Shown here: one piece after another, positions 6,237 to 32,037 of the stretch
Layout: every line of letters begins with the position of its first letter
How positions within the stretch are numbered: the first letter of the stretch is position 1
Assembly: GCA_017964785.1 (NCBI GenBank)
Contig: JAGCRH010000124.1
Location: 1 to 36,909, forward strand
From: Prevotella sp.
Lineage (GTDB): Bacteria > Bacteroidota > Bacteroidia > Bacteroidales > Bacteroidaceae
DNA: 36,909 nt
Direction: 5' to 3'
Translations under genes and position numbers: made by a program
Notes under the pieces: generated by a model
Told to the model about the DNA's origin: nothing
Database searches by the model: none
The model's input: the letters and a program-made list of their open reading frames with translations, nothing else

Positions 6237-8582
6237 TTACCTTTTTACTTTTTTCCGTAGGGTCAGGATATTATGTCCATCGGCACGCTGGTAGGCCAGC
6301 CCGTCGGTCATCTGGTGGAGCATGATGATGCCCAGTCCACCAGGAGGCCGTTGGTCGGGAGGTACCGAGAGGTCGGTAGTAGAGCCTTCGGTGGGGTCGA
6401 AGGGCTGTCCGTCGTCGTCGATGGTCAGTACCAGTTGTCCGTCCTCCACCTTTGCCTGCAGCGTGATGCTTGTGGCCTCGCCATAGTTGATGATGTTGGC
6501 CACCGACTCCTCTACCGCCAGACGCAGGCGCTTGGCTTCCTTCTCGTCTATACCCGCCTGCTGGACGGCATTAGTGATGAATGGTAGCAGACATCCGATG
6601 TCTTCCATCGAGGCTTTCAGAGAGAGGTGAGAGGTGAGAGGGGAGAGGGGAGAGGAATGCCATTTGATGGCCAGCAGGGTGATATCGTCACTCTGTTCTG
6701 CCTCACCCGCATAACGGTGCGCCTCCGCCTCCATCTGTTCCACCAGTTGCTGGGCGGTATCGTTGTTGTGCGCCTGTACCAGTTGCACCACGTGTTTTCG
6801 GCCCATCGACTGTTTTTCAGTGTTCTTCGCCTCCGTGAGTCCGTCGGTATAGAGGAACAGCATATCGCCATCCTTCAGTTGCGCCTCCTGTCCCTCATAC
6901 GTCCAGTCCGACAGAGCGCCTACGGGCAGGTTGTGCTTGATGGGCAACGGCTCTCCAGCCACGAAAGGAGCCTCATGTCCGGCGTTGCAATAGTCGAGAT
7001 GACCTGTTTGGAGGTCGAGGATCCCCACGAACATCGTGACGAAGTAGTCGGATGCCGACTCCTCGCAGAGGTTCTTATTCGTCGCCTCTACGATGGCAGC
7101 AGCACTGTCAGCACGACGGGCCTCACTGCGGAACATGGCCCTCATCACCGCCATCATCAGGGCAGCGGGCACGCCTTTGCCTGTGACATCGCCGATGCAG
7201 AAGAAAAGACGGTTGTCACGGAGGAAATAATCATAGAGGTCGCCACCCACATCGCGGGCAGGTGTCAGCGAGGCATAAAGGTCGAAATCCTTTCGTCCTG
7301 AAGTGGACAGGGCGTTCTTCGGCAGCATCGCCATCTGGATGCCCTGGGCGATTTTCAGTTCCTGTTCCAGGGCCGCCTTCATCGTGATGGTCTTCCGCAG
7401 TTGCTCCACATAGATGGAGAGCGAGGTCTGCATATTCTCGAAGGCATCGTGCAGCAGGCGCACCTCGTCGCCAGTCTTGATCTCCGGCAGTGGTGAGGAG
7501 AAATTACCCAGTGCCACCTGGTCGGCCGACATGGCGAAGAGGTGCAGGGGTTTGGTGGTCTTTCGGATCAGGTGACTGCTGATGAAGTAGAGAACTACCA
7601 GTCCGATGAGCATCGTCAGCAGGATGATGGTGTTCAGTATCTTTCCGTTGTGGAAGATGACTTTTTCTGGTACCACGATGACCATTGTCCAATCTACATA
7701 TTTGATGGTGCGGTAATAAATCCAAGAGTCCACACCATCCACATTCATCATGGCCTCTCCTTTCTCTCTTTTCACCATTTCCGCCACCACGCGGTCGTCG
7801 AGGGTGTCGGGCGTTTCTTTCGTCTGTTCCACGAAACTTTCATTCAGCATAAGGCTCTCGTCAGGATGCACGATATAACGTCCATGACGGTCGATGATAA
7901 AGCAGTATGACTTACGTTTGTGTCCCTTCTCATACTTCTCGTTCATCTTTTGAATCTCTCTGATAAAGTCGCGATGCATCGACTGAAGCGACAATTGGAG
8001 GCAAAGCAGACCCACGGACTGTCCCTGATGGTTGTGAACCGGGGTGGCATAGGTGGTAAGCATCGTTCGTCGGTTGACATCTGTAACGTGGGCGGGGTCA
8101 AAGTGTGCACCGACCCAGATACCTGTATCGCTCTTCAAACAATCCTGATACCATGGCGCACGAAAATAGCCATACACGCTATCGATCTTGGCGATGTACA
8201 TCCGTCCGGTGGAATCGCGTCTGACCATAGGCATGAAGGTGCCTTTCTTCTCGGGATAGTAGTCCGGCAGAAACAGAATGGCACTGCTCTTCAACCCCGG
8301 ATTCATCTTGACGATGCGCTCCATGTGGTCGTATAGCATGTCGGGGTGGTCGATGTCGCGCTCGATGTCGTGTACATTGTTCTTCGCAGCCACATAGATA
8401 TCCGACAGTCTGCGGCGCGTCTCCTCTTGCATCCTGCGCAGGATACCCTCGTATCGCCCCTGCGCCTCGTCGAGCATGTAGTTCCTGACGGAGAAATAGA
8501 CGATGCTGGTGATGAAAGCCAACATCACCAGTACCACTATCATGATGCGATAGGTCAGCCGCTTCGCCAGAGAGTTCTGCAT
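6237..8582 (-). CDS. Membrane Cache-HAMP-SpoIIE phosphatase fused to an RsbW-like HATPase
   Basis: Starting from ATG 8582 the protein has 781 residues. TM1 is at about 10-33, followed by a periplasmic double-Cache sensor to about 310 (FLPDYYPEKKG, IDRHGRYIVHPDESL, VDWTMVIVVPEK). TM2 (ILLTMLIGLVVLYFI) and HAMP follow. A SpoIIE/RsbU PP2C domain spans about 430-640 (ARDVGGDLYDYF, GDVTGKGVPAALMMA, LFLYTDGLTEAKN, SDDITLLA), with its metal-binding Asp residues present. A heptad-encoded linker (SPLSPLTSHLSL) leads to a GHKL ATPase at about 660-781 (N-box EESVANIINYG, TIDDDGQPFDP, GGLGIIMLHQ). Phosphatase and kinase of a partner switch are thus one polypeptide. I chose 8582 over the in-frame ATG at 8636 because the promoter (8606-8637) lies between them. 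Confidence 0.92.
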   Translation of the reverse strand: MQNSLAKRLTYRIMIVVLVMLAFITSIVYFSVRNYMLDEAQGRYEGILRRMQEETRRRLSDIYVAAKNNVHDIERDIDHPDMLYDHMERIVKMNPGLKSSAILFLPDYYPEKKGTFMPMVRRDSTGRMYIAKIDSVYGYFRAPWYQDCLKSDTGIWVGAHFDPAHVTDVNRRTMLTTYATPVHNHQGQSVGLLCLQLSLQSMHRDFIREIQKMNEKYEKGHKRKSYCFIIDRHGRYIVHPDESLMLNESFVEQTKETPDTLDDRVVAEMVKREKGEAMMNVDGVDSWIYYRTIKYVDWTMVIVVPEKVIFHNGKILNTIILLTMLIGLVVLYFISSHLIRKTTKPLHLFAMSADQVALGNFSSPLPEIKTGDEVRLLHDAFENMQTSLSIYVEQLRKTITMKAALEQELKIAQGIQMAMLPKNALSTSGRKDFDLYASLTPARDVGGDLYDYFLRDNRLFFCIGDVTGKGVPAALMMAVMRAMFRSEARRADSAAAIVEATNKNLCEESASDYFVTMFVGILDLQTGHLDYCNAGHEAPFVAGEPLPIKHNLPVGALSDWTYEGQEAQLKDGDMLFLYTDGLTEAKNTEKQSMGRKHVVQLVQAHNNDTAQQLVEQMEAEAHRYAGEAEQSDDITLLAIKWHSSPLSPLTSHLSLKASMEDIGCLLPFITNAVQQAGIDEKEAKRLRLAVEESVANIINYGEATSITLQAKVEDGQLVLTIDDDGQPFDPTEGSTTDLSVPPDQRPPGGLGIIMLHQMTDGLAYQRADGHNILTLRKKVKR
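6626..6653. repeat. Array of four heptads (GGTGAGA type) in the SpoIIE-type gene
   Basis: On the plus strand the units are GGTGAGA, GGTGAGA, GGGGAGA, GGGGAGA in perfect phase. They are read on the minus strand as part of SSPLSPLTSHLS, exactly in the linker between the PP2C and ATPase domains. Unit number (four), length (28 bp) and orientation relative to the gene match the array in topB and one array in the methyltransferase gene. Confidence 0.85.
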
Positions 8583-8605
8583 ACCGTTAGAGAAATTAGT
8601 TGGTG

Positions 8606-8637
8606 CAAAGATAAATAAAAAAAACGGACTGACCAAA
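8606..8637 (-). promoter_or_regulatory. Bacteroidetes-type promoter of the partner-switching operon
   Basis: Read on the minus strand: TTTG (8637-8634), a 20-bp spacer, then TATCTTTG (8613-8606), a full match to the consensus for the Bacteroidetes primary sigma factor. Transcription should begin near 8599, about 17 bp before the ATG at 8582. The -33 TTTG lies in the loop of the upstream gene's terminator hairpin. Confidence 0.82.
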
Positions 8638-22150: not shown

Positions 22151-25114
22151 TTATCGGCGCTGGTTGCGGTTGCCGCCGGCACCGCCGAAGCCACCCTGTC
22201 CACCACGGTTGTTGTTGCGGTTACCACCGCCGCCGTTGCCCCAGGTCTTGTCGTAGCGGCCTTCGGTGTCGACCTTGCCGCCGAACATGTTCAGGCGGTA
22301 GCGCACGTGGAGCATGGCGTACGAGTTGATACCGTTGTAGCGGGTGTCGCTGCGGCCCGTAGCGCCCACCCAGCGGTTATAGTTGCTCTGTTCTCCCAGG
22401 AGGTCGTAGAAGTTGAGGGCCACGACGAGCGTCTTGCTCTTGAGGAAGGTCTGGGAGATCTGTCCGTTCCAGATCAGCTCGTTGGTGTTCGACGACGGGT
22501 CGTTGTAGCCTCGCCGTGAGTTCTCGTGGATGTTGGTGCTGATTTCCAGACCGAAGGGGGCCCGGAAGATGACCTGTCCGCCGTAGTTGAACTGCCACGT
22601 GTCGAGGTCGGCTGTGGGCTGCAGTTCGTTGCGCGAATGCTGGTAGTTGCACCAGCCGTCGAGCGTCACCTCTATCCAGTCGTTGCGATAACTCAGGTTC
22701 AGGCGCTCGCTGAGGTTGGTGGAGCGCGTGGTGTTCTTGGCGGCGTCGGCCTTCTGCTGTGCCACATAACTCACGTAGTTGTTATAGCGCACGCGGGTGT
22801 CGGTGCCGATGTTCCAGTGGGCGGTGGTGTCGATGGCGGTGTTGAAGGTGATGCCGCTGTTGATGTTCCAGTTGCCGTTGATGTTCTCAGGCCGCGAGAT
22901 GCTTCCGCCGGTCTCGGGGTCGTAGCGCACGAGGTTCGAGATGGAGTTGCGGATGTTGCGGTAGTTGGCATAGACCACGATCGAGCGCTTGTAGCGCTGG
23001 ATGTAGTTGTTGTAATAGACGTTGAGCGAGTTGGTGAATTGCGGCTTCAGTCCGGGGTTACCCTCTGTGATGTAGAGCGGGTTGGAGTCGTCTCGGATAT
23101 CGAGCAACTGCGTGATGTCGGGCTGCCGGGTGTCGCCACGGTACTGCACACGGATGGAGTGCTGGTCGGTGAACTTGTAGCGGAAGTCGAGCGTCGGCGT
23201 GATGTTCGTCACGTTGCGGATGGTGTCCACGTAGCGGTTGCGGTAGTCCTGGATGAAATTGGAGTGCTGCGGCTGCACGAAGATGCCGACGTTGTATTCG
23301 TACTTCTCCTGGTAGTAGCGCAGCATCAGGCGGATGTTATGGGTGTAGTTCTTGTATTCGGAGTAGCGGCTGAGGCTCTTGTCGAGGTAGGGGGCGATAT
23401 CTCCGTTGAACGTGCCGAGCCAGGGATCCCACTCGCGATAGACGGGTGTGATGCCGGTGAAGGGGTTCTGCGCCATGTGACTGAAGTCATAGGTCTGGCG
23501 GTCGCTCTTGTTCTGATTGTACCTGAGTTCATAACTGGCCTGCAGGTGTGCGCCTTTCCAGAGGGGCTCACTGTAGGTGGTGCTCACCACGTAGCCGCTG
23601 TTGTCGCCAGGCGTGGTGTTGTAGCGGGCGGTGAAGTAGGTGGAGTCCTGTCCGGCCTGGTTCTTCACTTGGAACAGTTGCACTTCGTTGTTCGAGGTGT
23701 TCTCCTGCTGGCTGTCGCCCATGCTGCCTTCGAAGCGGACGGTAATATTGCGGCCCTTCGGGTTCAGGCGGCGGAACAGTTGCAGCATACCCCAGGCATT
23801 CTTGTTCTTGCCGTAGGAGAGGCTGGCCTGACCGTTGTGGTTCACGGCGATGTTACGGCTATACATATCGGCGATGCCCTCGTCGCTGAGTGGGTCGATG
23901 ACGTAGAGGTAGGGGTCGTCGGAGAAGGTGGCCGAGACAGAGGTCTGTCTGCCGTCGTTCGTGCCGTAACTGCCGTTGGCGCGCATCAGGATGGTGGTCA
24001 GCGTGTCGGGCTTCCACTCGAAACGCATGTTACCGTTCCAGTTGTTGCTGCGTGTGTAGTTATGCGAGTTGCTGTTCGAGAAGGTGCGGTAGTCCTGGCT
24101 GTAGAAATTCTCGCTGGTATTCTCGTTGGCGTTGTCGCCGTCGCGGTGGTTATAGCGGATGCTCAGGTCGGCCTTCACCTTCTTGCCGTCGTCGTAGTTC
24201 AGGTTCATGCCGGCCATCTTACGGGCGTTTAGGCCGCGGTTGTTCCACCAGCCGGCATTCTCCTCCTTATTGTTCATGTTGCCCATCAGCATGATGCGGG
24301 TATTGTCGGTAAAACTGCTTCCCATGCCGCGTGAGGCGTAGCGATGCTGCGTGCCGCCGGCAATGTCGAGGTTGGTCATGTAGCCGTGGTTCATGCCTTT
24401 CTTCACCGTGAAGTCGAGCACGGTCTCCTTCTCGCCGTCCTCGATGCCGGTGATACGGGCCTGGTCGCTCGACTGGTCGTAGAACTTCACGTTCTGGATG
24501 ATGTTGATGGGCAGGTTCTTGATGGCCGTCTCGATGTCGCCCAGCATGAATTCCTTGCCGTCGAGCAGGATCTTCTTCACTTCCTTGCCGTTGATGGTGA
24601 TGTTGCCGTCCTCGTCGACCTCTGCGCCGGGCATACGCTTGATGAGTTCCTCGATGGCGGAGCCCTCGGGTGTGCGGATGGCTTCGGGATTAAACACGAG
24701 GGTGTCCTTGCGCACCACGACCTGTGCCGCACGTCCCGTGACGACGGCCTCCTTCAGCATGATGCTCTCGGGTGACATGAGCAATCGTCCCAGTTCCTGG
24801 TTCTGGTAGCGTCGGAGGATGACCTCGCGCTCAATACTCTGATAGCCAACGGAAGATATCTTCAGGCGGTAGGTGCCGTTGGACGGGGCCTCGATGATGA
24901 AGTTTCCCTTGATGTCGCTGACTGTTCCACCCACAAACGTGCTGTCCGTGGCGGTGAATAACTGGACGGTGGCCTGTATCATCGGTTCCTTCTGGTCGGA
25001 ATCGAGCAGTTGTCCACTGATGGTGAGTCGTCTGTTTTCTTCGTTTTCCTCCTGGGCCTGTACGCCGGTTGCTGCCAGCAGCCAGAGGGCTAATAATAAT
25101 GTAAGATGTCGCAT
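22151..25114 (-). CDS. Outer membrane beta-barrel receptor with carboxypeptidase-regulatory-like N-domain
   Basis: A 987-residue protein with a signal peptide (LLLALWLLAATGVQAQ). A CarboxypepD_reg-like domain spans about 30-115 (GQLLDSDQKEPMIQATVQLF), a plug-like domain about 120-250 (EAVVTGRAAQVVVRKDTLVF, IEELIKRMPGAEVDEDGNI), and the rest is a barrel of the OMP_b-brl_3 type. The C-terminus is a Gly/Asn/Arg-rich tail (GNGGGGNRNNNRGGQGG) after the last strand, unusual for a receptor that should end in an aromatic residue. It is probably a surface or export-related barrel rather than a SusC. It lies 9 bp after the sensor gene and 28 bp before the BtuB-like receptor. Confidence 0.87.
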   Translation of the reverse strand: MRHLTLLLALWLLAATGVQAQEENEENRRLTISGQLLDSDQKEPMIQATVQLFTATDSTFVGGTVSDIKGNFIIEAPSNGTYRLKISSVGYQSIEREVILRRYQNQELGRLLMSPESIMLKEAVVTGRAAQVVVRKDTLVFNPEAIRTPEGSAIEELIKRMPGAEVDEDGNITINGKEVKKILLDGKEFMLGDIETAIKNLPINIIQNVKFYDQSSDQARITGIEDGEKETVLDFTVKKGMNHGYMTNLDIAGGTQHRYASRGMGSSFTDNTRIMLMGNMNNKEENAGWWNNRGLNARKMAGMNLNYDDGKKVKADLSIRYNHRDGDNANENTSENFYSQDYRTFSNSNSHNYTRSNNWNGNMRFEWKPDTLTTILMRANGSYGTNDGRQTSVSATFSDDPYLYVIDPLSDEGIADMYSRNIAVNHNGQASLSYGKNKNAWGMLQLFRRLNPKGRNITVRFEGSMGDSQQENTSNNEVQLFQVKNQAGQDSTYFTARYNTTPGDNSGYVVSTTYSEPLWKGAHLQASYELRYNQNKSDRQTYDFSHMAQNPFTGITPVYREWDPWLGTFNGDIAPYLDKSLSRYSEYKNYTHNIRLMLRYYQEKYEYNVGIFVQPQHSNFIQDYRNRYVDTIRNVTNITPTLDFRYKFTDQHSIRVQYRGDTRQPDITQLLDIRDDSNPLYITEGNPGLKPQFTNSLNVYYNNYIQRYKRSIVVYANYRNIRNSISNLVRYDPETGGSISRPENINGNWNINSGITFNTAIDTTAHWNIGTDTRVRYNNYVSYVAQQKADAAKNTTRSTNLSERLNLSYRNDWIEVTLDGWCNYQHSRNELQPTADLDTWQFNYGGQVIFRAPFGLEISTNIHENSRRGYNDPSSNTNELIWNGQISQTFLKSKTLVVALNFYDLLGEQSNYNRWVGATGRSDTRYNGINSYAMLHVRYRLNMFGGKVDTEGRYDKTWGNGGGGNRNNNRGGQGGFGGAGGNRNQRR

Positions 25115-25123
25115 ATGTATGTA

Positions 25124-26644
25124 TTATTTTTTATTTTTGCGATGTGATGATGAAGTGCGGGTTGACGGTGTGGTACTCGTCGTGACAGAGGCTGCCAGCA
25201 TCCGGGTGAGGTGGCTGATGGCCTCGGCACTCGACCTCATGCGGGCGGTGATGTCCGTCAATTCATTGTCGGGTATCTCGTGGAACATCCCGGAGAGCAC
25301 CTGTGTAAAACCGTTGATGATGTTCAGCGGTGTCCGTATCTCGTGGTACATGTCGCGGATGAAGAGTGTCTTCTTGCGGTTGGTCTCCAGTTTGAGTTGA
25401 TAGGCGGTGGCGAGTTCGTCGTTCTGCTGTTGCAGTTCGTCGTTGACGCGCTGGATGTCGGCAACACTTTCGGCAAGCGACTGTTGCATGCGGCTGAAAC
25501 TGTTGGTGAGGCGACCCACGCTATCGCGGCGCGAACTCTCGGGAAGGGGCTCATCGAAATGGCCGTCGGCGATACGTCGGACGGCGTGGTCGAGTTGGCT
25601 CAACGGCTGTGCGGCTCGGCGCACGGTCTGGTAACAGAAGAGCATGAGCAGCATGAGTCCGATGGCGATGATGACCCACACAATGATGATCATGTGATCG
25701 TAGCGGGCGTAGACATCGCTCTCAGGACAGACGATGGCAATGCTCCAACCGTTGCGTTGTAGCGGACGGTAGAAGATGAAAGCATCGTTGCCGTCGACGA
25801 TAGTCTCTATCATGCCGCTATTCCCAGATATCATGGACTTTCCCATCATCTCGATTTGGCGTCGGACCTCTGGGGCGGCATCTGTGAAGATGGACTCACT
25901 GAATAGTTTCGCCGTGTCGGGGTGGACGATATAGGTGCCGTTACGGTCGACCATGATGGCCGACGAGTTCGGATAGGGTTTCAAGGCGGAACAGGCCTCG
26001 GAGAGCCATTTCAGCGTGAGGCTGGCGGTGATGGAGCCTATGTAGCGGCCGTTGGCGTCACGCATGGGACAGCAATAGGATGTCAGGTAGTCTGGCGATG
26101 AGAGCGTGCCCTCGTTATAGTCATCGTAGGCATCCACCCAACAGGCCTTGCCGAGTGTCCGTGGGGTCTTGTACCACACGGCATCGAAGTATTCGAACGG
26201 TCCCTCGCGTACAGTGGTGATGCTGTCGATGGCGGTGCTGTCGGCATCGTCCGGCCTGTATCGCAGCGAGTAGGCTGAGTAATACCGCCCCTTCTCTGGG
26301 AAGTAATTCGGTTCCATCGAGATGGCAAAGCCTGTGAGGAATGGATTATCCTCGATGGTGCGGCGTGTGAAGACGAGTAAGGAGTCGGGGTGGAGGTGGC
26401 GTGTGGTGGTGACAGCCATGTAGTTGGTCACGGTCTCCGTCTCGTCCATGATGCCGTTGATGCGCTCTACTGTATTGTTGAGCAGTTGCGTGGCGCGGTC
26501 GATGGCGGCGCGCTGGACATAACTTTTGCTCCGGTAGAAAAGGTAGCCGAAGAGCAGCGCAAAGGCCACCGTGATGACGAGCACGATGACGAGGCCGAGG
26601 CGGAGCGAGAGTCGCCGCCGGATGTATTGGATGAGTCTGTTCAT
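25124..26644 (-). CDS. Membrane Cache-HAMP-DHp sensor lacking a kinase ATPase domain
   Basis: A 506-residue protein from ATG 26644, whose ATG overlaps the previous stop as ATGA. TM1 is at about 15-37 and a periplasmic double-Cache sensor runs to about 305 (PNYFPEKGRYYSAYS, VDRNGTYIVHPDTAKL, GWSIAIVCPESDVYARY). TM2, HAMP and a coiled coil follow. The HisKA-type DHp segment FIRDMYHEIRTPLNIINGF carries the phosphoacceptor His434. Only 72 residues remain after it, so there is no HATPase domain, and just 9 bp separate it from the next gene. The last roughly 20 codons are Ser/Thr-rich, while another frame there has more native codon use (stop at 25131-25133), hinting at a frameshift near the end. 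Either reading still lacks the ATPase domain. Confidence 0.85.
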   Translation of the reverse strand: MNRLIQYIRRRLSLRLGLVIVLVITVAFALLFGYLFYRSKSYVQRAAIDRATQLLNNTVERINGIMDETETVTNYMAVTTTRHLHPDSLLVFTRRTIEDNPFLTGFAISMEPNYFPEKGRYYSAYSLRYRPDDADSTAIDSITTVREGPFEYFDAVWYKTPRTLGKACWVDAYDDYNEGTLSSPDYLTSYCCPMRDANGRYIGSITASLTLKWLSEACSALKPYPNSSAIMVDRNGTYIVHPDTAKLFSESIFTDAAPEVRRQIEMMGKSMISGNSGMIETIVDGNDAFIFYRPLQRNGWSIAIVCPESDVYARYDHMIIIVWVIIAIGLMLLMLFCYQTVRRAAQPLSQLDHAVRRIADGHFDEPLPESSRRDSVGRLTNSFSRMQQSLAESVADIQRVNDELQQQNDELATAYQLKLETNRKKTLFIRDMYHEIRTPLNIINGFTQVLSGMFHEIPDNELTDITARMRSSAEAISHLTRMLAASVTTSTTPSTRTSSSHRKNKK

Positions 26645-27666
26645 GTTTCGGCGGGTTCTAAGATGAGTTGGTCCAACAATTCCACGATGGTATTGGTACC
26701 GTCCATGATGTCCGTTTGCAGGGCGGTCATATCGGCCTTCGAGAGTGTCGCGTAGTCGCGGCAGATGTCTTCGGTGCTGTGGCATACCTGCTCCACCGGT
26801 GCTGCCATCTTGGTGGTCATCTCGGTCAGGAATGTCGCCTTCATCGTCTCGTATGCCTGCGCTTCACCATAGGCCGCTTGCAGTTCGGCATTCTGGCGGC
26901 TCAGTGTCGTCTGCTTTTGCTGCATCTCTTCCATATAGGCTCTCAGCGAACGCTGCATCTTCCTCAAATTCGACTGCAAGCGTCCTGTCTCATGTTCGTG
27001 GTGCGAGTCAGGAATCGGCGTGTCCAAGTTCCCACCGGCGATGCTCTGTGCTGCGTCGGCCAACTGGTGCAGTGGCCGGAGGTGGCGCGCAATAATAATG
27101 TAGAGCACAACGAGTAGCACCAGTATGCCGCCGATGCCCCATACCAACAGTACTTGATGCATGCGGGAGTACCTGCTGTATATATCGTCCGCAGGGCACA
27201 CCGCCGCAATGCAGAACTGACGCTCGCCCAACGGCTGCGAGAAGATGTAGACCTCGTTCTCGTCGTACATCAACTGTCGGTAACTTCTCTCGCCGCCTGT
27301 GATGAAGAGGTCCAGTTGGCTGCTGTCCCGTCGCGTCACAAAGAGTTGTGCGTTGGGCAGCGACTGCCGCAACTGTTCCAACGAGCCGCTCTCCTCGATG
27401 AGCCGCTCAATCCGTGAGCGGTTCACCCGCAGCCGCTGGTTTTCCAGCCGTGCCGTTATCTCCTGCTGCCGCAGCGTATTGTCTATCCTCAGTGCCGTGT
27501 TCTCCAGTGCCTGCAATGTCGTGTCGATGGTCTCGTCGCGGATGACATCTTCTGAGAACCGCGTCAGCAGAATGATAACAACCGCACTGATGACGAGCAC
27601 GAAACCGGCCACCCACAACGAGAGTTGTGTGGAAAACGATGTGCGTATCTTCTGCAATGGTGTCAT
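26641..27666 (-). CDS. Short paralog of the downstream sensor with a degenerate DHp domain
   Basis: A 341-residue protein with TM1 at about 13-36 (LSLWVAGFVLVISAVVIILL), a short periplasmic part, TM2 at about 168-190 (LLVWGIGGILVLLVVLYIII), HAMP and a coiled coil. The segment KATFLTEMTTKMAAPVEQVC lines up with KTLFIRDMYHEIRTPLNIIN of the next protein, but the phosphoacceptor His is Thr. The match also covers VYIFSQPLGER and VCPADDIYSRY, so the two genes are tandem paralogs, this one with most of its Cache domain lost. It ends after the DHp region and has no ATPase domain. It may act as a heterodimer partner or scaffold. Confidence 0.83.
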   Translation of the reverse strand: MTPLQKIRTSFSTQLSLWVAGFVLVISAVVIILLTRFSEDVIRDETIDTTLQALENTALRIDNTLRQQEITARLENQRLRVNRSRIERLIEESGSLEQLRQSLPNAQLFVTRRDSSQLDLFITGGERSYRQLMYDENEVYIFSQPLGERQFCIAAVCPADDIYSRYSRMHQVLLVWGIGGILVLLVVLYIIIARHLRPLHQLADAAQSIAGGNLDTPIPDSHHEHETGRLQSNLRKMQRSLRAYMEEMQQKQTTLSRQNAELQAAYGEAQAYETMKATFLTEMTTKMAAPVEQVCHSTEDICRDYATLSKADMTALQTDIMDGTNTIVELLDQLILEPAET

Positions 27667-27673
27667 AGGTGCT

Positions 27674-30211
27674 CTACTTCTCTGCTACGATATTCTTCAA
27701 GGCTGAGCCGAAGATGATATACTGGGTATTGCCGGCGATGGTGCCTTCGTTCTGTCCCCAAAGGAAGGGCCAGTCATCGTAGTTCTCGAAGTGGTCGGGC
27801 TTGCGGAACAGCAGACCGGGGGCCACGTTGCCTGGGATGGCAGAGAAGTCGGCACGGTTGTTACCGTAGAACACCTGCTTTGGACGAGTGGCACCTACAA
27901 CGGCTACGAAGGAGTAGTTGTGGTAGGGATGACAGCCGTAGAGCCAGTTGCTGACACGGTAGACCTCATCCTTGCTCACAATGTCGGGATAGTAGATGTG
28001 GGCGTAGTTCACGGTGATGCCGAAGTTCAGGACGGCATTCACACCGGCCCAGTTGCCCAGTCCGATGGGTACGCCGTATGGGTTCTGCGTGTCGAAGCCC
28101 TTGATATAGGCCTCATATTTCTCCACGTAGGGACGGAGTTTCTGTTTGTAGGCCTCATCCATATAGGGTATGGCATCAAGGGCAGTCTGCATCGTGTTGG
28201 AGACGTTGCGGTCGAGTGCAGGCCATATCTGCTGTTCGTAGTTGTCGCGGTACTGCTGTTCCTTGGTCGCGGCAAAGAGTTGCAGATTAGTTGCCAAGTC
28301 GCCCCGATTGTTACGACGGTCCTGCTGGGCGTTGGCACGGGGACCACGGCGCTGGTTCATCAGTTCGGTAGCCTCCTGCATCAGTCGCTTCGACTGGGTG
28401 AGGGCACGCTGGGCCAGATCGTCGTTGTACCCAGTGAGGGCTCGGCTGGCAGCGGCAAACATCGTGGCGGCCTGGAAGTCGAGGCTGGGGTTGCGGGTGG
28501 TGAAGGCCCACATATCGTCGGGTGTACCGCTGCGCTTGCCGTCGGCAGATACCTCGTAGGGCTTCAGCGATGGATCGTAGTGCAGACCGTCGGTGATGCT
28601 GGCTGCATCGCCCAGGTGGTGGTAGTTGTCGAGAACGGAGTTGGAAAGGGTAGAGGCCATGTGCCCGATCTGCTCAGCCTGTGCCACGAGGTTCAGCGTG
28701 CCGTGTTCGATAAACTGCAGGATGTCTGGTGTGCCGTCGGGACGGTGCAGGTCTACATAGCGCTGCTTCTGACTGACGAACGTCTCGTCGCGCTGAGGCT
28801 TGAAGAGTTCCCAGGTGCGGATGAAGTTCTGCACCACACCGATGTTCGAACCCGTCTCGATATCGAAGTCGCCGGCATCAAAGAATCCGCCGATATTCAG
28901 ACCGGGAATGAGTTCGTAGGGTTTGTACTTCGTGTCGGTCTGTGCTCCCTGGCGGTGCAGGTCGAAGTGGTCGCTGGGCGGTGCCTGTAAGTAACCCTCC
29001 TTAAACGGCTCGCCATGCCAAGTGCGGTAGCCCTCGTTCACATACATGTGGTTCATGTGGATGGGCACCCATACATCGGTGGTGGCATCGGTGATCTTGT
29101 CATAGACGTGCTCGTCGATGAGGAAGTCATTTGTCTTTGTATTGCCGTATTGGATATAATAGACCCCTGGCTGCTTCACGGATGAGAAATCGAATTTCAC
29201 ATAGTTGTATTTGAAGTAAGGCCCCCACGACTGGATGTTTCCTTTATAGGCCTCTTCTGTCGTACCGTCTGTATTCATACGCATCAGCGAGGCAGTAGCC
29301 TGTGGCGTGTCATGCTTGTCGAGTTCGATGACAGCCACCTTTGGCTGTTCAGGGATATAACCTACTTGTGAAAATCCGATGTTCGGTTCACGGATCCAGT
29401 TGGGGATGGCGTGTGGCTCTACAGTCCAGGTAACCACCTTGCCTGTCTTTCCCTTGGGCAATACACTGCGCAGCACAAACCAGCCGTTCTGTGCCAGCAT
29501 TCTTCCGTCGTAGAGTTTCAACTCGGCATCATCGCTGCTGATGCGGATCATGCGTTCTGGACTGTCGGAAGCCATGATGATGCTATGGCCTGTCTCGATG
29601 GGAAGCGGGTCGATGAAACGGTCTGTTCCCCTGTCGTCGTAGGTCTTAAAGCCTTTGAACTGACGAGGTTTTTCGCTGTTGGGACGGGTGATGGTCTGAC
29701 TGGTGGCATAACGGGGCAGACGACCCAAACGACCGTCCATCACGAAAGTTTTCAGCCAGTACTGCGAGGGCAGGAACTCGATGTTAAAGCCTGCCTCGCC
29801 AGCCAGTTTCTCAGGCACAGGCTTGTCCAAATAGACGGCAATCTCCACGGCCTTGCCCTTGGCTGTGACGATGACACGGCTGTCGAAGTCGTAGTCATCG
29901 TAACGCATGGCTACTTCAATACTGCCGTTCTCACGATCCACCTTTCGGTTGGTCATCTTCGGCACAAGGTCCCATTGTTCTGGCGTATTGTTCAGGCGGA
30001 CGGCTCCGCCCTGTACGGTACGCACACCATGATGAATGATTTCAATACCCGAGTTCTTCTCGTCATTGAAACCGCCGTTAAAACTGTTGCTGAACACCAG
30101 CAAATTCACACCCTGGCGCTCGAAATACTCCAGGTCATTGAGTTTCAGATCCTGCGCCGATACCCCAGCGAAGAAAGTCGTGGTAATAATAACTGATAAT
30201 AGTCTTTTCAT
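27674..30211 (-). CDS. Glycoside hydrolase family 9-like protein with CelD-type Ig domain
   Basis: About 845 residues from ATG 30211 (signal MKRLLSVIITTTFFAG; an ATG at 30229 adds six residues). An N-terminal beta-rich extension of about 270 residues is followed by an Ig-like CelD_N domain (IGFSQVGYIPEQPKVAVIEL). The (alpha/alpha)6 catalytic part contains the GH9 signature GGFFDAGDFDIETGS with the two catalytic-site Asp, the CHPYHNYSFVAVVG segment and the proton-donor Glu near the C-terminus in WGQNEGTIAGN. GH9 enzymes are mostly endoglucanases or glucosidases on beta-1,4-glucans. A Gln/Arg-rich insert (NQRRGPRANAQQDRRNNRG) sits in the catalytic part. It is the first gene after the LytS/LytTR pair. 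Confidence 0.85.
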   Translation of the reverse strand: MKRLLSVIITTTFFAGVSAQDLKLNDLEYFERQGVNLLVFSNSFNGGFNDEKNSGIEIIHHGVRTVQGGAVRLNNTPEQWDLVPKMTNRKVDRENGSIEVAMRYDDYDFDSRVIVTAKGKAVEIAVYLDKPVPEKLAGEAGFNIEFLPSQYWLKTFVMDGRLGRLPRYATSQTITRPNSEKPRQFKGFKTYDDRGTDRFIDPLPIETGHSIIMASDSPERMIRISSDDAELKLYDGRMLAQNGWFVLRSVLPKGKTGKVVTWTVEPHAIPNWIREPNIGFSQVGYIPEQPKVAVIELDKHDTPQATASLMRMNTDGTTEEAYKGNIQSWGPYFKYNYVKFDFSSVKQPGVYYIQYGNTKTNDFLIDEHVYDKITDATTDVWVPIHMNHMYVNEGYRTWHGEPFKEGYLQAPPSDHFDLHRQGAQTDTKYKPYELIPGLNIGGFFDAGDFDIETGSNIGVVQNFIRTWELFKPQRDETFVSQKQRYVDLHRPDGTPDILQFIEHGTLNLVAQAEQIGHMASTLSNSVLDNYHHLGDAASITDGLHYDPSLKPYEVSADGKRSGTPDDMWAFTTRNPSLDFQAATMFAAASRALTGYNDDLAQRALTQSKRLMQEATELMNQRRGPRANAQQDRRNNRGDLATNLQLFAATKEQQYRDNYEQQIWPALDRNVSNTMQTALDAIPYMDEAYKQKLRPYVEKYEAYIKGFDTQNPYGVPIGLGNWAGVNAVLNFGITVNYAHIYYPDIVSKDEVYRVSNWLYGCHPYHNYSFVAVVGATRPKQVFYGNNRADFSAIPGNVAPGLLFRKPDHFENYDDWPFLWGQNEGTIAGNTQYIIFGSALKNIVAEK

Positions 30212-30245
30212 ATTTTCTATTTTTATCATAATTTCATTTTTTACA

Positions 30246-30998
30246 TTATCCTTCCGTCATCCACTGCTTAAACTCGGCAGCCCGGTTCTTACTGACAAAG
30301 AGGCGTTCGGGGGTGTCTACGTTCAGCGTAATCAATAGGCGGCTATCGTACCAGACGGTAATCTTCTTGACGCTGTCGCGACAGACGGCAAACTGCTTGT
30401 TGGCTCGGAAGAACAGATGAGGGTTTAGCGTCGAAAGAATGGCCTCGAGCGATTTGGAGTAAAGCAGACTGTCACCATTGTTCAGGCAGACAGTAGTGGC
30501 TTTTTCCGTAGAGTAGATATAGGAGATGTCAGTTACGGCAACGGGAACCAACATATCCTTATGTGGAATGAGCAGGCGGGTCTGCCAGCGGTTTTCCGGT
30601 ACTAGCGAGCCCATGCGGCCAAGATATGCGGTAAGGTCTATTTTGCTAAGTATGTGGAATTTTTCGATGGCACGCCGCACATCTTTGGCCTTGATGGGTT
30701 TCAATAAATATTCGATACTGTTCACATGGAAGGCGTCGAGGGCATACTCATCGTAAGCGGTGGTAAAGACAATAGGAACCTTAACCTCCATCTGGCTAAA
30801 GATGGCGAAGGCAGAGTCATCACTCAGGTGGATGTCCATGAAGATGAGGTCTGGCTGCTGATGCTCGTTGAGCCAGCGTACAGTTTCAGTCACGCTCTCC
30901 GTATTGCCTACCACTTCCGTGTCGGGTGCCACCTCTTTGATGATACTCAGGAGATTCTGGTAACTTGAAGTTTCGTCTTCTACTATCAGTACTTTCAT
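30246..30998 (-). CDS. LytTR-family response regulator
   Basis: A 250-residue two-domain regulator. The receiver has the acidic pair in VLIVEDE, phosphoacceptor Asp55 in LIFMDIHLSDDSAF, and the switch segment FTTAYDEYALDAF with the conserved Lys in YLLKPIKAKD. A LytTR DNA-binding domain spans about 145-247 (DISYIYSTEKATTVCLNNG, FFRANKQFAVCRDSV). It forms a two-component system with the LytS-like kinase 19 bp upstream. The spacer contains an AAAGGTAAAAAA tract, like those before the STAS and AraC-type genes. Its binding sites are not known; the GH9 gene lies just downstream in the same transcript. Confidence 0.94.
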   Translation of the reverse strand: MKVLIVEDETSSYQNLLSIIKEVAPDTEVVGNTESVTETVRWLNEHQQPDLIFMDIHLSDDSAFAIFSQMEVKVPIVFTTAYDEYALDAFHVNSIEYLLKPIKAKDVRRAIEKFHILSKIDLTAYLGRMGSLVPENRWQTRLLIPHKDMLVPVAVTDISYIYSTEKATTVCLNNGDSLLYSKSLEAILSTLNPHLFFRANKQFAVCRDSVKKITVWYDSRLLITLNVDTPERLFVSKNRAAEFKQWMTEG

Positions 30999-31017: not shown

Positions 31018-32037
31018 CTAATTCTTCATCGGAATATACACGGTGAAACGATGGCCGTCATTCTCAACTCTCAACTCACGACCAGACATGAGGCGCAGAC
31101 GGTTGGCCAGATTCTTCAGGCCGATTCCGTTGGTCACTGGCGGTTGTTGTTTGGGATAGATGGGGTTGCTAACAACAAGTTCCCCGTGCTCGTTGATGCC
31201 GATTGAGAGTTTCATGGAATGGGCTGAGTCAATACAATTGTGTACGATGACATTTTCTATAATCGGCAACAGAGTGAGCACGGGGAGCATATATTTAGTT
31301 CTCTGTTGGTTGTCTATTTGAATGTCGAATGTCAACTTGCCGGCATAGCGTACCTCGAGCACATAGCGGAACGATTCTGTGAAAGCCAGTTCATCGTTCA
31401 GGGGTACCATCCCCTTGTCGCTGCTCTGCAGGGTGTAGCGGAACACGTCCGACAGTTCGTCGATGTAATCCAGCGTGCGTTTATTGTCACCACCTCTTAC
31501 CAGGGAGGCGATGCCGCTCAGTGAGTTGAAGAAGAAGTGTGGATTAATCTGCCCTGCCAGTGCGGCATACTGGCTCTGCAGGTTTTCTGAACGCAATTGC
31601 TCTACCTCTGTTGCCATGCGGGTTTGTTCTTCTTTCAGCAACGAGATGTGACCAGTCGATGCACCGAGTCCGAAAAGGGCTACAAACTTCAATATGAGCG
31701 TCGTGCTGATTCTGTCGTACACACCGTAGTCCGATAGCGAGTTACTGATCAGTGCAAACAAGCCGTAGGCCACCACCGATGCACCGAGTCCGTAAACCAA
31801 TCGTTTCCCTAAACTCCATGCCTTCACTGTGTTCAGATGATAGATCAGTATAAAAAACAGGAAGAAATAGCAGAAACGGAACACGTGGAAACTCCAGTAC
31901 AACCAAAGATTCTCTTGTACGCAGGGCCATTCCATGTGCCATGGGATGTATATCAGATTCGGATAGACCATAATCAGTGCCCCGATGATGCCGAGCCACA
32001 CGTATCGTTTCGAAATCATTTCTAAGTCTTTCTGCAT
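31018..32037 (-). CDS. LytS/YehU-type membrane sensor histidine kinase
   Basis: A 339-residue kinase with four predicted transmembrane segments in residues 10-130 (WLGIIGALIMVYPNLIYIP, FCYFFLFFILIYHL, LVYGLGASVVAYGLFALI, LILKFVALFGLGASTG). A short coiled coil leads to the His_kinase domain (phosphoacceptor His167 in GQINPHFFFNSLSG). The ATPase part shows the N-box PIIENVIVHNC and GIGLKNLANRL. No separate periplasmic sensor is present; the signal is probably sensed in the membrane. Starts at 32037 or 32019 are both possible. It heads the 12-gene unit and is preceded by a 400-bp spacer with two candidate promoters. Confidence 0.93.
   Translation of the reverse strand: MQKDLEMISKRYVWLGIIGALIMVYPNLIYIPWHMEWPCVQENLWLYWSFHVFRFCYFFLFFILIYHLNTVKAWSLGKRLVYGLGASVVAYGLFALISNSLSDYGVYDRISTTLILKFVALFGLGASTGHISLLKEEQTRMATEVEQLRSENLQSQYAALAGQINPHFFFNSLSGIASLVRGGDNKRTLDYIDELSDVFRYTLQSSDKGMVPLNDELAFTESFRYVLEVRYAGKLTFDIQIDNQQRTKYMLPVLTLLPIIENVIVHNCIDSAHSMKLSIGINEHGELVVSNPIYPKQQPPVTNGIGLKNLANRLRLMSGRELRVENDGHRFTVYIPMKN

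Follow-up and report, generated by a model that had tools for sequence, protein, structure and literature searches.

What can a histidine kinase-like sensor do when the domain that binds ATP is missing and its adjacent paralogue has no phospho-acceptor histidine? This question is raised by two overlapping genes, here termed sensor A and sensor B, in a 36,909-nt stretch of DNA from Prevotella sp. (assembly GCA_017964785.1, contig JAGCRH010000124.1, positions 1-36,909 of the forward strand), which we refer to as the window. The two genes belong to a conserved family of tandem pairs in which A has lost the histidine and B has repeatedly lost its catalytic and ATP-binding (CA, HATPase) domain. We tentatively favor an interpretation in which the pair is a heteromeric, ligand-gated sensor that is not a self-sufficient kinase and that docks onto or dephosphorylates a regulator encoded elsewhere.

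Sensors A and B end after the DHp domain

The two proteins and their parts are arranged as follows (TM, transmembrane helix).

26641..27666, minus strand: sensor A (341 aa), consisting of TM1, a shortened periplasmic segment, TM2, HAMP, a coiled coil and a DHp lacking His, with no CA
26938..27096, minus strand: HAMP of A (residues 191-243, Pfam)
26665..26844, minus strand: DHp-like hairpin of A (residues ~275-334, profile comparison)
26812..26814, minus strand: Thr285 of A, which stands where the phospho-acceptor His would be
25124..26644, minus strand: sensor B (506 aa), consisting of TM1, dCache, TM2, HAMP, a coiled coil and a DHp with His434, with no CA
25730..26509, minus strand: dCache_1 sensor domain of B (residues 46-305)
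25472..25624, minus strand: HAMP of B (residues 341-391, Pfam)
25196..25372, minus strand: HisKA/DHp of B (residues 425-483)
25343..25345, minus strand: His434 of B, the first codon of H-E-I-R-T-P-L-N

The preliminary description of this locus, made from the DNA letters alone, presented the genes as tandem paralogous sensors ending after the DHp domain, and both open reading frames bear this out. A Pfam scan finds no HATPase domain in A or B, and neither is therefore classed as a histidine kinase. Sensor B exceeds the Pfam cut-offs for dCache_1 (54.3 bits, cut-off 45), HAMP and HisKA, and the PDB entries 3li8 and 3lib match across its sensor domain. Sensor A exceeds the cut-off for HAMP only. 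A profile of 24 A proteins matches both helices of the DHp of chains 3dge and 2c2a (E ~0.002), which we take to be HK853, and aligns with the B profile over nearly the full length (hhalign probability of 100). In this alignment, A covers the N-terminal helix of B and the final ~60 residues of the B sensor domain but not the middle. A hydropathy scan places ~138 residues of A and ~280 residues of B outside the membrane. The "shortened Cache" earlier ascribed to A is thus apt in that the middle of the domain is gone relative to B, but Pfam finds no Cache in A.

As had been noted, B carries the H-box MYHEIRTPL with His434 and stops 72 residues later, and Thr285 of A aligns opposite this histidine. 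The H-E/D-x-x-T/N motif and the phospho-acceptor His that define HisKA kinases are accordingly present in B (H-E-I-R-T) and absent from A. The tight packing of the genes also proved correct: the gaps are 7 bp between a glycoside hydrolase family 9 (GH9) gene and A and 9 bp between B and the next gene, and A and B overlap by 4 bp, with the ATG of B on the stop codon of A, leaving no room for a CA gene at the locus. A 553-aa version of the B reading frame uses a start codon farther upstream, inside A; the length of 506 aa is counted from the overlapping ATG.

A conserved family of tandem sensor pairs

When the two-gene arrangement was sought elsewhere, as the preliminary description had proposed, 68 further tandem pairs were found beyond that of the window, far above chance. 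The final set comprises 69 A-B pairs, including the window pair, and one solitary B (70 Bs). It excludes two loci on the same contigs as others (L074 and L076, with L077 and L079, respectively), one at a contig end (L098), one with a broken B (L097), a wrong pairing in L114 and three false ones in L196-L198; counts involving the CA domain additionally exclude L080 and L199, which are cut at contig ends, unless stated otherwise. In L097 (8424-9404, G149:C4), the first 77 residues of B are fused to flavodoxin-like sequence, as judged by eye, beside an intact A.

Among 200 Prevotella genomes, a B match at 1e-60 occurs in 64 and an A match at 1e-10 in 88, counts that include related Cache-HAMP-SpoIIE proteins. 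Within the same taxonomic family (301 genomes), pair-type genes occur in g1 (Prevotella), g14, g21 and g19, and the other matching genera have the sensor half only, in frames of ~650-830 aa. At the order level (295 genomes), three genomes other than our own match, again in the sensor half only. All of these searches scored no more than the 4 to 10 top-ranked candidates of each genome, and the family counts are thus lower bounds. Four of the relatives are Prevotella metagenome-assembled genomes, from red deer, yak reticulum and two RUG isolates (RUG presumably denoting rumen). The genome of the window itself contains a second pair, on contig C77, whose A (453 aa) carries Asp at the His site and whose B (636 aa) has both HisKA and HATPase domains. 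Its longer parts mark the window pair as a reduced version of a larger design.

The A and B genes overlap by 4 bp in 32 of 66 cases and lie within 20 bp of each other in 61 of 66, where a few long overlaps are artefacts of computing gaps from the earliest possible start codon. Divergence in A and B is correlated (Spearman 0.565), with a value as high in none of 500 permutations. The heterodimer proposed earlier thereby gains indirect support, from close co-directional genes, correlated divergence and an A without the catalytic residue, while the contact between the two proteins is itself a prediction. We propose that A and B would together make up a single membrane sensor, with a heterodimer or heterotetramer paired through the DHp domains as the most likely form.

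H-box residues in A and B

The phospho-acceptor His is missing in 68 of the 69 As. The residue at this site is Asp in 35, Asn in 16, Glu in 5, Ala in 4, Gln and Ser in 2 each, and His, Lys, Val, Gly and Thr in one each, and Thr four residues later (H+4) is found in 5/69. The 50 CA-bearing Bs have His (43), Leu (5), Ile (1) or Gln (1) at the site itself, Gln at H+1 in all but one (49/50), and Thr (49) or Ser (1) at H+4. Every one of the 20 CA-less Bs, including the two cut at contig ends, has His and also Thr at H+4, and the H+1 residue in the 18 uncut sequences is Glu in 13, Gln in 3, Arg in 1 and Asp in 1. Across all Bs, Thr at H+4, one of the two residues (Thr/Asn) expected there in a HisKA phosphatase, is present in 69/70, with Ser in the remaining one, and Pro at H+5 is present in 70/70. 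The six Leu/Ile sequences all come from genus g14, and the case with Gln at the His site comes from a Prevotella genome. At the g14 loci (L176, L178, L179, L182, L184 and L185), B reads S-L/I-Q-I/L-R-T-P and keeps its CA motifs; neither subunit of these pairs therefore has a phospho-acceptor.

Gln at H+1 marks the B family, as all HQ[I/V]RTPLN sites in 60 Prevotella genomes (29 sites, with 3 more matches having Ser for Arg) fall at listed matches to the sensors: 24 lie inside a listed B match and 5 lie ~1.1-1.2 kb downstream of a listed same-strand A match, as compared by eye. The HE form of the pattern gives 167 matches in the same genomes (a per-genome sum in which a few may read Ser). Gln-type copies number up to four per genome in this sample.

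In one study of HisKA proteins (PMC3510030), the E372Q variant of CrdS is described as losing kinase activity with phosphatase activity intact, and E140Q of NtrB as having a phenotype that matches a kinase-negative, phosphatase-competent state. The same source reports that CrdS H371A keeps most phosphatase activity, that CrdS N375 at H+4 is required for phosphatase activity only, that the isolated DHp of EnvZ and of NtrB suffices for phosphatase activity, and that the CA domain also raises this activity (PMC3510030). By analogy, most Bs would have lost what a kinase requires and kept what is required of a phosphatase or a receiver-docking surface, and the CA-bearing relatives are predicted to be disarmed kinases, through Gln at H+1 or, in one genus, Leu/Ile in place of His.

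Repeated loss of the CA domain

Orthologs with a complete CA domain exist (L086 and L090), and the loss is thus derived, yet it is shared across species and repeated. The 18 CA-less Bs comprise 16 copies in 15 genomes, our own included, and two further contigs. A quick maximum-likelihood tree, computed for 43 Bs with the CA columns removed, requires four changes of CA state, with the starred branches alone forcing three to four. The window B sits in a clade of 13 CA-less Bs and one cut at a contig end. Adjoining this clade, two pairs of relatives each combine a CA-bearing member (G152, G025) with one that has lost the domain (G130, G088), and G149, G072 and a second G032 copy make up a further loss. 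The CA-less Bs stop 52-75 residues from the His, just past helix 2, and no CA remnant was detected by a CA profile within 700 bp past the stop in 17 CA-less relatives (matches up to an E of 10 all scored at most 0.5 bits). A truncation in this one strain, which would have undercut the preliminary description, or a sequencing frameshift is thus ruled out by the 18 CA-less Bs, the 9-bp gap downstream of B and the lack of remnants.

A CA-less B always stands beside a shortened A of 221-345 aa (18/18) and never beside a long A of at least 453 aa (0/43), and six short As, one of them cut at a contig edge, are paired with a CA-bearing B. At five loci (L092, L093, L095, L096 and L116), A has almost no periplasmic domain and is reduced to TM-HAMP-DHp. 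We suggest an order of events in which A lost its His and CA, then A lost its sensor, and then B lost its CA domain repeatedly.

Both genes are under purifying selection. Measured against the two nearest relatives, the ratio of nonsynonymous to synonymous divergence (dN/dS) of the window pair is 0.08 for B and 0.10 for A relative to L077, and relative to L073, it is 0.16 for B and 0.08 for A; comparisons with saturated dS gave no ratio. These values bear on whether we are looking at a decaying pseudogene pair, with an accidentally truncated B and both genes in the course of being lost. The loss of most of B in the relative L097 is what such decay would produce, and the loosest part of B is the tail past helix 2 (dN/dS of 0.26-0.41). 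With whole-protein values of ~0.1 and a truncation that is shared by species, repeated and similar in its end point, we disfavor decay and regard it as very improbable. In the DHp, dN/dS is 0.03-0.36 for CA-less and 0.06-0.18 for CA-bearing Bs, ranges that overlap, with the CA-less sequences looser in several comparisons.

The distribution of invariant columns among the 18 CA-less Bs (10/26 in DHp helix 1, 74/317 in TM1 and Cache, 7/51 in HAMP) is informative on another alternative, a purely conformational receptor whose signal would pass through HAMP and DHp to another membrane or cytosolic protein with no phosphate step, as has been proposed for degenerate plant ethylene receptors. The reduction of A at the five loci above would suit such a receptor, as would the lack of His in A, to which seven CA-bearing Bs add its loss in B. 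However, helix 1 of B has the largest invariant share of the protein, which points to a receiver-binding surface, and we consider this alternative rather improbable.

Proposed function of the pair

In the interpretation we favor, B would sense its ligand through dCache, and A would be a catalytically empty partner that, in the subgroup of the window, has lost most of its sensor. Ligand binding would alter the conformation of HAMP and DHp and, in turn, the binding of a receiver by helix 1 of B (H434-E-I-R-T438-P). By analogy with the isolated DHp of EnvZ and NtrB, this helix would probably dephosphorylate the receiver of a regulator that is phosphorylated elsewhere.

The main rival is a split kinase resembling FasB/FasC of Streptococcus pyogenes, in which a CA domain acting in trans, from the C77 pair or another kinase, would phosphorylate His434 for transfer to a regulator, or with His434 serving as a phosphate sink if there is no acceptor. 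We judge it unlikely on balance, although it accounts better for two features, the kept His434 and the acid that has returned at H+1. In S. pyogenes, FasC is reported to require His246, to function without its own CA domain and to pair with FasB (PMC12675982). Our genome also has, besides its CA-bearing pair, a 260-aa, soluble-looking and sensorless DHp-CA kinase with the motif HEIRTPLN (L200:4112-4894, contig C126; CA part by eye) as a possible CA donor in trans. Against a split kinase, a CA partner is absent from the locus, the CA-bearing B of our own genome has Gln at H+1, and three CA-less Bs keep this Gln and one has Arg. Moreover, both A and B lack His in six pairs of another genus, and a phospho-acceptor is therefore no general need of the system.

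Several observations weigh against the phosphatase or docking role that we favor. All CA-less Bs keep His (the 18 uncut sequences and L080), and 14 of the 18 have an acid at H+1; an acid there is not needed by a pure phosphatase, and its return is better suited to a working phospho-acceptor. The association of the H+1 residue with CA loss, striking in the raw counts (Gln in 24/24 CA-bearing versus 3/18 CA-less Bs), amounts to 4 independent contrasts, too few for a sign test to reach significance, and serves as a lead. The kinase block by Gln would itself be carried over to the Bs from other proteins. The ATP-lid Gly motifs are kept in 49/50 CA-bearing Bs by a simple pattern (N-box pattern in 27/50, G1 pattern in 42/50), which is odd for proteins that never phosphorylate, though the CA domain also boosts phosphatase activity. 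The DHp of A is looser than its HAMP (dN/dS of 0.15-0.52 versus at most 0.08). Finally, a receiver profile finds no conserved response regulator near the pairs in the fetched loci, where true receivers occur only in hybrid regulators, at L079 (and its duplicate L076) and L104; the profile included one misframed member (L129) and still recovered the LytTR regulator of the window at 1e-34. The genome of the window as a whole yielded 15 receivers.

A broader version of the favored interpretation is that the whole family consists of heteromeric "anti-kinase" sensors, whose selected function would be to hold a regulator and remove its phosphate. The kinase would have been disarmed in several ways: an A without His and CA, a B with Gln at H+1, a B with Leu/Ile for His in one genus, and deletion of the B CA domain on about four branches. 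After CA loss, the Gln would be superfluous and the acid could return, and these would be natural sensors that only remove phosphate. This generalization is speculative, and we hold it to be doubtful.

Genomic context

On the minus strand, the window genes run in the order LytS-like kinase, LytTR regulator, GH9, sensor A, sensor B, outer-membrane barrel and, as judged by eye, a TonB-receptor-like gene.

31018..32037, minus strand: LytS-like PF06580 kinase (context; not conserved near pairs)
30246..30998, minus strand: LytTR response regulator (context; not conserved near pairs)
27674..30229, minus strand: GH9 with a CelD_N domain, directly upstream of A (7 bp)
22151..25114, minus strand: outer-membrane beta-barrel protein containing a CarboxypepD_reg domain, the next gene after B (gap of 9 bp)

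It had been suggested that the pair signals to the LytS/LytTR system just upstream, with which it is contiguous in the window (gaps of 16-19 bp). BLAST at 1e-5 gives no match to either gene in 72 loci around pairs, of which two are duplicates and which take in the 6 kb preceding GH9 in L077, a close relative; in L073, the nearest named relative, the contig starts inside GH9 and allows no synteny call, and other loci also end at contig edges. The LytS protein, moreover, is of the PF06580 type, whose DHp is of a type other than HisKA. LytS/LytTR is thus rejected as a general partner, and we regard signaling to it as highly unlikely.

A same-strand neighbor lies within 250 bp upstream in 47 of 66 cases and within 250 bp downstream in 38 of 65. 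The commonest recognized upstream kinds among the 47 scanned are NMT1/THI5-like proteins (8), CelD_N (7), alpha-L-arabinofuranosidase (5) and GH43 (3), and one neighbor is the B of an adjoining pair. Downstream, where an A gene was set aside and the other 37 neighbors were scanned, GH9, aminotransferases and epimerases are commonest (5 each). Many copies of the pair are likely to serve in the use of plant polysaccharides, and the adjacent GH9 suggests a beta-glucan link for that of the window. The NMT1/THI5-like binding proteins lie directly upstream of the pair (at loci including L112, L115, L177, L181 and L183) and may hand a ligand to the Cache sensor. In our own genome, one such protein lies upstream of a Cache-HAMP-SpoIIE-like protein (contig C112, L012:1608-2576).

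Two further kinds of neighbor were observed. A third sensor gene upstream of A (L196:8858-9868 and L198:3684-4694) encodes 337 aa with an MCP-like_PDC_1 Cache-type domain and, by eye, a C-terminal hydrophobic stretch, while HAMP and DHp are absent by Pfam. Near three pairs, PPDK_N proteins of ~1000 aa have receiver matches below the Pfam cut-off (L195:1377-4382, L108:12896-15907 and L106:15551-18559).

Comparison with known systems

The closest parallels each match the pair in part. FasB and FasC are likewise encoded by adjacent genes and are two sensor kinase-like membrane proteins that pair, but one working CA domain is kept and the regulator FasA is encoded in the operon (PMC12675982). The 69 pairs share the adjacent paralogous genes, whereas the working CA in one partner is lacking in the window pair, in which both CA domains are gone, one partner has no His and no regulator is linked. 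The DHp-only constructs of EnvZ and NtrB resemble the CA-less Bs in having a HisKA DHp with His and Thr/Asn at H+4 and no CA; they are artificial fragments of homodimeric kinases (PMC3510030). The CA-less Bs, in contrast, are natural, membrane-bound, linked to a sensor and accompanied by a paralogue that has no His.

RetS/GacS and the ChrS pseudokinase offer the likeness of a kinase-like protein that modulates another through pairing, and the titles and abstract beginnings on these systems describe no His-less/CA-less tandem partner. These proteins keep a CA-like domain, unlike the window pair. The A profile also matches 4mt8, which we take to be Ethylene response sensor 1, a plant ethylene receptor. 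Degenerate ethylene receptors are likewise of histidine kinase descent, some without kinase residues, and occur as groups of paralogues, but they differ in sensor domain, kingdom and output, and we know of no gene tandem among them.

Within the same genome, Cache-HAMP-SpoIIE phosphatases have the same dCache-HAMP sensor half as B (the C112 copy is 37% identical to B residues 1-419), with a SpoIIE-type phosphatase rather than DHp as output, as assigned by Pfam for the window copy. The latter, a Cache-HAMP-SpoIIE-HATPase protein, lies at 6237-8636 of the window. By eye, this genome further encodes a TPR kinase-like protein apparently without His (L146, contig C68) and a hybrid regulator without a recognizable H-box (L129/L147, contig C111).

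Implications

Natural pairing of sensor kinases with pseudokinases is already known. In the literature searched (titles and abstract beginnings, with subscription journals mostly outside), we found no publication on CA-less/His-less sensor pairs of this kind; what appears to be new is a two-gene sensor whose kinase has apparently been disarmed again and again throughout a family, ending in a putative natural CA-less/His-less heteromer.

The usual picture of a histidine kinase is a homodimer able to add phosphate as well as to remove it, and here the two activities have apparently been separated many times in one gene family. The family thus offers a natural experiment that could tell apart the DHp residues needed for kinase activity, for phosphatase activity and for dimer formation. 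Domain-based annotation would be expected to label such proteins as kinases and may predict the wrong sign of signaling. The pairs would also add a class of receptor to the control of plant-fiber use, beside the hybrid two-component regulators.

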